Origin: Acidilobus saccharovorans 345-15
GTDB lineage: Archaea > Thermoproteota > Thermoprotei_A > Sulfolobales > Acidilobaceae
Length of the DNA stretch: 64,000 nucleotides
Assembly: GCF_000144915.1 (NCBI RefSeq)
Contig: NC_014374.1
Coordinates: 1,178,001 to 1,242,000 of the forward strand
Direction: 5' to 3'
A model generated the notes under the pieces. That model was not told the origin of the DNA. It did no database searches and was given only the letters and a program-made list of their open reading frames with translations. The position numbers and the translations under genes were made by a program. Positions 27,308 to 28,787 of this stretch are shown piece by piece; positions within the stretch are counted from its first letter, which is position 1; the number at the start of each line of letters is the position of its first letter.

Positions 27308-27357
27308 CTGCTAAACTTATTTGTTCTTCAGGTAAACCTCTGAGAGGGCCCTCTGTA

Positions 27358-28134
27358 TTGGTAACTAACATAGAGATTTCAGGCTTCACTGAAGAGGTGC
27401 TAGAGGCCCTGGTAAAGGCTGGAATCTATGGAAGCAAGACAGAAGCCATAAGGGACGCCATAAGAAGGCTCCTAGAAAGCTACGACCTTAAAGAAATATC
27501 TCTTAGGGCATACAAGAACGGGAGCATCAGCTTTCAGCTGGCAGTAGAGATAAGCGGCCTTAGTGTGGATGAACTCACGTGGTACTTTCTCTCAAGGGAC
27601 ACCGCCCCGCTACTTGGGTCTGACGACGCTTCTGAGATTGTATCGGGGGAGGAGCAGCTGAAGTCTAGGGGCTCGATAACCTTCGACCTCTCGTCCCTTT
27701 ATGCGATGCTTGAGCTGAACGCGGTTGACCTCGTGTCGCAGCTGGGCAAGAAACTCTCCATATCGTCTAAGACTATGGAAAGGGCTAAGGCTTTGGTCCT
27801 GAGGCTCTCCAAGGCTAAGGGCGTTGCATACACGTTAAGTAGCTTCGACGTAGTCAGCATAAACAAGTCGCTCATGGAATTCTCCAGGAGGAACGGCATA
27901 TCGCTTCAGGAGGCCCACTCAATTTACATAGCTAAGAAGTTAAATGGCATTTTAGTTAGCGACGATGCTAAGACTAGGCAGGTTTCAAGATCCTATGGGG
28001 TTCCTGCAGTCCCTACGCTCTCTCTTCTGTCCTACGCCAGATCCCAGGGACTTGTAAACAATAATTACTTCAAAGAACTTGTGATGAAGATGGCCACAAT
28101 ACCCTTTATGGTCCCCAAGGACTTCATAGGCTAG
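27358..28134 (+). CDS. RHH-UPF0175-PIN single-chain fusion (antitoxin-toxin-like)
   Basis: 258 residues with three parts. Residues 1-45 form a ribbon-helix-helix DNA-binding domain (strand NIEISGF, then KTEAIRDAIRRLLESY). Residues 46-85 resemble UPF0175 (ISFQLAVEISGLSVDELTWYF). Residues about 105-230 look like a PIN nuclease, with candidate acidic residues D110 (ITFDLSSLY), E185 (SLQEAHSIYIAKKL) and D202/D203 (ILVSDDAK). VapB and VapC are normally separate proteins; here regulator and nuclease share a chain. TTG start. It may be an autoregulated RNase or a PIN-containing transcription regulator; the assignment rests on motif reading. Confidence 0.68.
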   Translation: MVTNIEISGFTEEVLEALVKAGIYGSKTEAIRDAIRRLLESYDLKEISLRAYKNGSISFQLAVEISGLSVDELTWYFLSRDTAPLLGSDDASEIVSGEEQLKSRGSITFDLSSLYAMLELNAVDLVSQLGKKLSISSKTMERAKALVLRLSKAKGVAYTLSSFDVVSINKSLMEFSRRNGISLQEAHSIYIAKKLNGILVSDDAKTRQVSRSYGVPAVPTLSLLSYARSQGLVNNNYFKELVMKMATIPFMVPKDFIG

Positions 28135-28208: not shown

Positions 28209-28787
28209 TTGAGCGCCAAAACCTCCCCAAAGGGCCTAGGTCTCGCACTAGTAATAGCCATAGATAGCAGCGCCAGCATGATGCTCAAAGACGTGAAGCC
28301 TAATCGGCTGGAGGCCGCAAAGAGGAGCGCTATTGTAATAATTAGGAGCGTTGTGGGGAGCGGCATTCCAACGTTGGTTGGCGTGATCTCTTTCTATGGC
28401 AACTCCTTCCCAGTGATGGATCTTACGGACAGCGTAGAAGAGCTCGAGGAGGCGGTCAACTCAATAAAGGTCTCAGGCAAAGCTACAAATCTAAGCATGG
28501 CTGTGAAGGACGCGTTTTACATGTTCAAGGACTCGCCGCCTGGCTACTCAAGGAGGCTCATAGTAATAAGTGACGGCGACTTCAACGAGGGACCTGGACC
28601 CGACGAGGTCCAGTTCCTTGCCAAGTCCAGCGGCATGAGGGTCGACTTTCTAGTGATAGGTAATTCCCAGCACGTTAAGTCCGACCAAATGACTAAGCTT
28701 GCTAACATAACAGGGGGCAAAGTTGTCTACGCCAGGTCCCTCGAGGAGGCAATAAAGAACGCCTACAAGATAGCTATAGGCGAGTGA
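28209..28787 (+). CDS. VWA-domain protein
   Basis: A 192-residue protein that is essentially one von Willebrand factor A domain. The metal-ion-dependent adhesion site is complete: DSSAS (residues 19-23, DxSxS), T in SGKATNLSMA, and D in VISDGD. No signal peptide or membrane helix, so it is intracellular. VWA proteins often pair with MoxR-type AAA ATPases; none is adjacent. TTG start. It follows the PIN fusion by 74 bp with TTTAAGG in between, so it may have its own promoter. Confidence 0.85.
   Translation: MSAKTSPKGLGLALVIAIDSSASMMLKDVKPNRLEAAKRSAIVIIRSVVGSGIPTLVGVISFYGNSFPVMDLTDSVEELEEAVNSIKVSGKATNLSMAVKDAFYMFKDSPPGYSRRLIVISDGDFNEGPGPDEVQFLAKSSGMRVDFLVIGNSQHVKSDQMTKLANITGGKVVYARSLEEAIKNAYKIAIGE

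Follow-up and report, generated by a model that had tools for sequence, protein, structure and literature searches.

In the 64,000-nucleotide stretch of DNA from the heat-loving archaeon Acidilobus saccharovorans 345-15 analysed here (the window), a ribbon-helix-helix (RHH) domain, a UPF0175-like segment and a PIN domain are joined in one protein chain. The chain is homologous to UPF0175 and DUF3368 proteins, three of the PIN acids are kept and the fourth is lost, and the gene is strictly linked to a VWA-domain gene. We put at about one in two the probability that a fused UPF0175/DUF3368-type module, together with the RHH domain, has been domesticated into a metal-dependent PIN factor that is regulated and acts with a MIDAS-type VWA protein. 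The features of the locus are collected in Table 1.

Table 1. Features of the fusion locus (positions in the window, except the last row, which gives positions in other genomes)
Feature	Position	Strand	Basis or remark
TATA-like element AAACTTATTT	27313..27322	+	candidate, read by eye
12-bp perfect palindrome AGAGGGCCCTCT, just 5′ of the start codon	27343..27354	.	weak operator candidate
RHH-UPF0175-PIN fusion gene	27358..28134	+	258 aa, TTG start; ORF reading and homologues
RHH domain, residues 1–43	27358..27486	+	profile matches, alignment; model helices 10–20 and 27–41
UPF0175-like three-helix segment, residues 44–87	27487..27618	+	Pfam, model, hhalign
PIN domain with DUF3368-like C-terminal tail, residues 105–258	27670..28131	+	Pfam, model, Foldseek, hhalign
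PIN acid I, D110	27685..27687	+	alignments
PIN motif-II glutamate position, here R142 (lost)	27781..27783	+	hhalign and joint alignment
PIN acid III, E185	27910..27912	+	alignments
PIN acid IV, D202-D203 (D203 invariant)	27961..27966	+	alignments
VWA-domain gene, 192 aa, MIDAS DxSxS (D19, S21, S23) and D122	28209..28787	+	conserved partner
Palindrome GGAATCCC-N4-GGGATTCC	L103 (G044:C22:24593-24612), L104 (G054:C79:43782-43801)		within a 26-bp perfect palindrome in G044

Domain architecture and active-site residues

The initial annotation had placed the fusion in a single frame of 258 residues, and had proposed a survey of relatives for the same arrangement. Homologues without internal stops, spanning both the RHH and the PIN parts, were found in 31–32 of 60 relatives. 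The frame, on the plus strand and opening with TTG, is therefore a real conserved gene with the limits first given to it, and the one-chain architecture recurs. The family extends over tens of Thermoproteota genomes at 25–73% identity, with one copy per genome, and in all homologues found the antitoxin and PIN toxin parts lie in a single ORF rather than in two adjacent genes. The AlphaFold2 model of the fusion has a mean pLDDT of 92.8 and a pTM of 0.86, and contains no low-confidence linker. No viral carriage of the fusion was found, the single viral contig that matched doing so in the RHH part only. Matches from Woesearchaeota and Pseudomonadota (L060–L064) were left out because they covered the RHH domain only. 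A contig binned to Methanoperedenaceae (L058) breaks off within a homologue, matching at 38% over 102 residues, which could be spread beyond Thermoproteota or a binning error.

Profile and fold matches back the three-domain reading of the chain, and the toxin-antitoxin ancestry that goes with it. At the N terminus, RHH_1 scored 17.7 bits on the window protein alone, which is below threshold, and matched 16 of 30 family members (best 9.7e-5); the VapB, ParD and RHH_8 models also gave matches in the family. The ParD model TIGR02606 was matched at 1.2e-5, and comparison of the family profile with solved structures returned ParD antitoxins at 5e-5, bearing out the RHH domain that had been predicted there. 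Within the domain L18, G22, Y24, E29, R32 and R36 are invariant and E6 is nearly so: among 44 sequences with a letter at residue 6, in the RHH strand, 41 have Glu and three have Asp. The ungapped register with ParD and CdrS would have this residue face the DNA, and an acidic side chain on that presumed DNA-facing side counts against ordinary DNA binding. The earlier suggestion of an RNase targeted to DNA is weak because a near-invariant acid occupies this predicted DNA-facing position.

The middle segment gave a weak, sub-threshold match to Pfam UPF0175 in six of 30 members (best 0.0034), and the window protein alone gave no UPF0175 match in Pfam. When residues 47–87 were aligned with free-standing UPF0175 proteins by hhalign, an E-value of 4.8e-6 was obtained, with 35% identity over 40 columns. 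The UPF0175 assignment is borne out by these two comparisons.

For the C-terminal region, PF20698 matched residues 109–211 with 47 bits (cut-off 27.8), and hhalign aligned residues 104–258, including the C-terminal tail, with free DUF3368 PINs at an E-value of 1.6e-14; there was no direct match to PF11848 (DUF3368). Structure prediction had been proposed as a check on the PIN fold. The model is confident, and Foldseek matched it to the archaeal VapC/PIN structures PAE2754, Pyrococcus VapC4 and SSO1118, with TM scores (target) of up to about 0.7, in agreement with the PIN domain first proposed.

Weak matches outside the fusion family were to separate PIN genes of 151–178 aa. A UPF0175-type gene lies directly 5′ of each of these free PINs, clearly so in L080–L082 and L100–L102 and in divergent form in L083; in L084 the C-terminal region of a longer protein upstream of the PIN is of UPF0175 type. 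COG2886/UPF0175 is among the PIN-associated antitoxins listed by Makarova et al. (PMC2701414). Because the nearest free PINs follow UPF0175-type genes, the fusion is best read, from these sequence comparisons, as a UPF0175/DUF3368 pair in a single chain with an RHH domain in addition.

The active-site positions were compared in the 30-member alignment and in one combining 45 fused sequences (some of them near-duplicates, two cut off) with seven free PINs. The former shows no variation at D110, E185 or D203. In the latter, E185 and D203 were found in 43 of 43 sequences where the position is present, residue 110 is Asp in 39 and Glu in four, and residue 202 is mostly Asp, so that the acids singled out in the initial annotation are conserved, with rare Glu for D110. 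From the PIN fold, D110, E185 and D203 would be expected to meet in one pocket. Of the four PIN acids conserved in VapBC toxins, the fused proteins thus keep three. The motif-II glutamate is present in all seven free PINs (E44 of L080) as against four of 44 fused sequences, and hhalign places the two sets in the same register.

From the general order of PIN motifs, we take E43 of VapC1 from NTHi (H. influenzae) to be the motif-II glutamate. The toxicity of VapC1 is abolished in the E43A mutant (PMC4229260), and since the fused PIN has lost the residue needed there, it is unlikely to be a VapC toxin of the classical kind. Slightly more than one helical turn past motif II, at column 147, 20 fused sequences have Glu, which may stand in for the motif-II glutamate in those sequences; Acidilobus has Val at this column and so is not among them.

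Linkage to the VWA gene and local sequence elements

The VWA gene lies directly 3′ of the fusion, on the same strand, at every locus for which flanking sequence was available, from Acidilobaceae to Marsarchaeota G1/G2. In a survey of 398 genomes of the phylum, the full-length fusion was found in 17 genomes (E-values up to 4e-34), and these are also the ones with the VWA orthologue (up to 4e-40), which adjoins it in all of them; the next VWA proteins (4e-30 and weaker, in frames of 316–450 aa) were encoded elsewhere in the genome. Both genes are present in 32 of the 60 relatives, and a 33rd, G035, has the VWA gene at a contig end beside a cut-off fusion fragment. No genome with either gene alone was seen in the 398 phylum genomes or the 60 relatives. 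Distance matrices were correlated with r = 0.84 for fusion and VWA, 0.43 for fusion and ribosomal protein S5 and 0.31 for VWA and S5, and the fusion–VWA correlation was 0.82 after S5 distances were removed; the genomes behind these counts and distances are phylogenetically non-independent, and linked genes share a history. The linkage shows that fusion and VWA gene are a co-inherited unit, which is not proof of contact. The initial annotation had noted a VWA-domain gene after the fusion, correctly, and had stated that no separate partner gene lies beside it. That statement is refuted, as the VWA gene is a conserved partner in 17/17 and 33/33 genomes. Within one genus, G053 has both genes and G210, at 99% completeness, lacks both at the thresholds applied, a contrast that is a joint gain or loss inside the genus.

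The VWA protein has the MIDAS pattern DxSxS...T/S...D, with S23 invariant and D19, S21 and D122 each conserved in at least 90% of sequences. Its model (pLDDT 92.2) resembles BatB, TFIIH Ssl1/p44 and Rpn10. At about half of the loci the two ORFs overlap, at six of them by exactly four bases, figures that may be overstated since starts were taken as the longest possible; in many lineages the genes are probably translationally coupled. The gap between the fusion and the VWA gene is 74 bp in Acidilobus, where the latter may have a promoter of its own.

In many genomes of Acidilobaceae and of f9 the VWA gene is followed by a third, of about 170 aa (cluster C3: L044:6427-6954, L096:421-927 and equivalents). 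These genes are diverged VWA homologues (E-values of 1e-5 to 1e-14) that lack DxSxS in the examples read, and the L044 copy had no match in Pfam. Two VWA genes surround the fusion at L039:2752-4834, L042:3888-5016 and L098:2302-3343, either in the order VWA-fusion-VWA or with the second VWA gene convergent with the first.

Other neighbours of the unit differ between genera. In many genomes it adjoins genes for very large proteins of secreted type (L044:957-4922, L079:10702-14670), one of which has a subtilase domain. A link to the S-layer was considered and rejected: secreted-type or S8 peptidase neighbours occur in many Acidilobaceae and are absent in Acidilobus or Caldisphaera-type genomes. 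No recurrent MoxR/AAA+ neighbour was found in the loci compared, and in the window's genome the MoxR-like matches sit away from the unit.

The palindrome AGAGGGCCCTCT upstream of the fusion is the sole copy in the window and had p = 0.05 in mononucleotide shuffles. It was rejected as a conserved operator in Acidilobus, as the nearest species do not have it. The palindrome GGAATCCC-N4-GGGATTCC lies just upstream of the fusion in G044 and G054, which represent two genera of the same family (one is a Pyrodictiaceae MAG), and has no second exact copy in either genome, so that autoregulation is plausible in this lineage, judged from the site. A wider regulon was rejected, looser matches being fewer than in the reversed control. 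Operator-like palindromes upstream of the fusion in other lineages were weak or absent, and none was conserved outside that family.

Proposed mechanism and alternative readings

In the mechanism that we propose, a UPF0175 antitoxin and DUF3368-type PIN toxin gene pair would have become one chain with an N-terminal RHH domain. In Thermoproteota this chain would then have been domesticated and paired with a single-domain VWA protein, the two forming one unit. The RHH domain would dimerise the chain and, in some lineages, would probably also repress its own operon by binding DNA. We infer that the UPF0175 segment packs on or beside the PIN active site and restrains the PIN domain in cis, and that the PIN domain, keeping the three-acid metal site (D110, E185 and D203), binds or cuts a substrate that is presumably RNA. 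The VWA protein, made alongside, would use its MIDAS site to contact the chain, and might thereby either stabilise the restrained state or release the PIN domain. That the VWA protein directly gates a single-chain RHH-UPF0175-PIN ribonuclease through MIDAS, in an undescribed archaeal two-protein system with a three-acid site and no ATPase, is a tentative suggestion which we think more probably wrong than right.

Of the three interpretations offered in the initial annotation, the best fit is that of a domesticated toxin serving as a regulator, because the fusion is single copy, has no viral carriage beyond the RHH match, is co-inherited with the VWA gene and has lost the motif-II glutamate. The domain reading is supported, and the claim that there is no partner falls. 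A self-inhibited nuclease is possible, given UPF0175 in cis and three acids of four. Several observations weigh against our reading. Co-travelling genes would share a tree even if their products never met, and the spacing in Acidilobus would allow separate expression of the VWA gene. The acidic E6 counts against ordinary DNA binding, no operator-like palindrome is conserved outside one family, and loss of the motif-II glutamate may mean that there is no catalysis whatever.

If the unit were instead an active single-chain toxin-antitoxin of the EzeT kind, UPF0175 would act in cis to inhibit a PIN RNase that is itself active, and stress would free the toxin by proteolysis or VWA remodelling. Such modules exist (EzeT, PMC4826407), both parts of a known toxin-antitoxin pair are present in one chain, and the three metal acids are invariant in the 30-member alignment; even so, we consider this unlikely, because the motif-II glutamate required in VapC1 (PMC4229260) is lost in about 40 of 44 fused sequences and because a single-copy, VWA-coupled gene matched in viral contigs by its RHH part only is unlike mobile toxin-antitoxin modules. 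The same loss would suit a non-catalytic regulator, in which the PIN domain is an RNA- or metal-binding remnant, the RHH domain regulates its own operon and perhaps neighbouring surface-protein genes, and the VWA protein is a co-regulator. The promoter palindrome, unique in two genera from a single family, and the large secreted-type or S8-protease genes adjoining the unit in many Acidilobaceae point the same way. However, the invariance of three acids in a family whose members are as little as 25% identical goes beyond what a dead remnant would need, the palindrome is absent elsewhere, E6 lies in the RHH strand, and Acidilobus has no surface-gene neighbours, so that we doubt this reading too. 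A chaperone or conflict system of the MoxR-VWA type, with the fused PIN as effector, is improbable: an intact-MIDAS VWA protein does stand beside a PIN protein, ternary systems with PIN effectors have been described (PMC7159879), and MoxR-like ATPases are encoded elsewhere in these genomes, but the loci compared have no recurrent MoxR/AAA+ neighbour, and the described systems have large multi-domain VWA proteins and come mostly from multicellular bacteria. That the two genes are chance neighbours held together merely by stable gene order is very improbable. Linked genes can co-segregate without contact, but here every other neighbour changes between genera and neither gene is found alone in any sampled genome.

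On the preferred reading, a domesticated PIN factor with a VWA partner, the fusion would be a clear example of a toxin-antitoxin module that has become a fixed cellular component: fused, single copy, altered in its active site and provided with a partner of its own. Through the strict linkage a specific partner is singled out that can be put to the test, and the altered motif II allows one to ask whether a PIN domain works with three acids. The unit could also show VWA control of archaeal nucleases without a MoxR ATPase.

Relation to known systems

No description of the RHH-UPF0175-PIN/VWA pair was found in a partial literature search, and the family may already be present in protein-cluster databases without comment. 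Like UPF0175 (PF03683, COG2886)/DUF3368-PIN (PF11848) pairs, the fusion has a UPF0175-like segment followed by a PIN domain with a DUF3368-like tail; it differs from them in being one chain, in the extra RHH domain, in the loss of the motif-II glutamate, in being single copy and in its fixed VWA partner. With VapBC it shares RHH and PIN domains and the fold match to PAE2754 and Pyrococcus VapC4, but it is fused, keeps three of four acids, has no separate antitoxin and has a VWA gene alongside. Its PIN domain scores above the Pfam cut-off for PIN-TPR-GreABC (PF20698), whereas the chain has no TPR or GreA/B-C domain; no paper on a TPR-GreAB-C-PIN system was found in the literature. EzeT and other single-chain toxin-antitoxins, already known, likewise carry antitoxin and toxin parts in one polypeptide, but EzeT itself has a zeta-kinase toxin, and neither an RHH domain nor a VWA partner is described for it (PMC4826407). 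VWA-effector systems with MoxR, including some with PIN effectors, have also been described (PMC7159879). The MoxR-VWA ternary conflict systems resemble the present unit in tying a MIDAS VWA protein to a PIN-bearing component; the fusion unit differs in having neither MoxR nor a third core protein, and its VWA protein consists of one domain, about 190 aa long.
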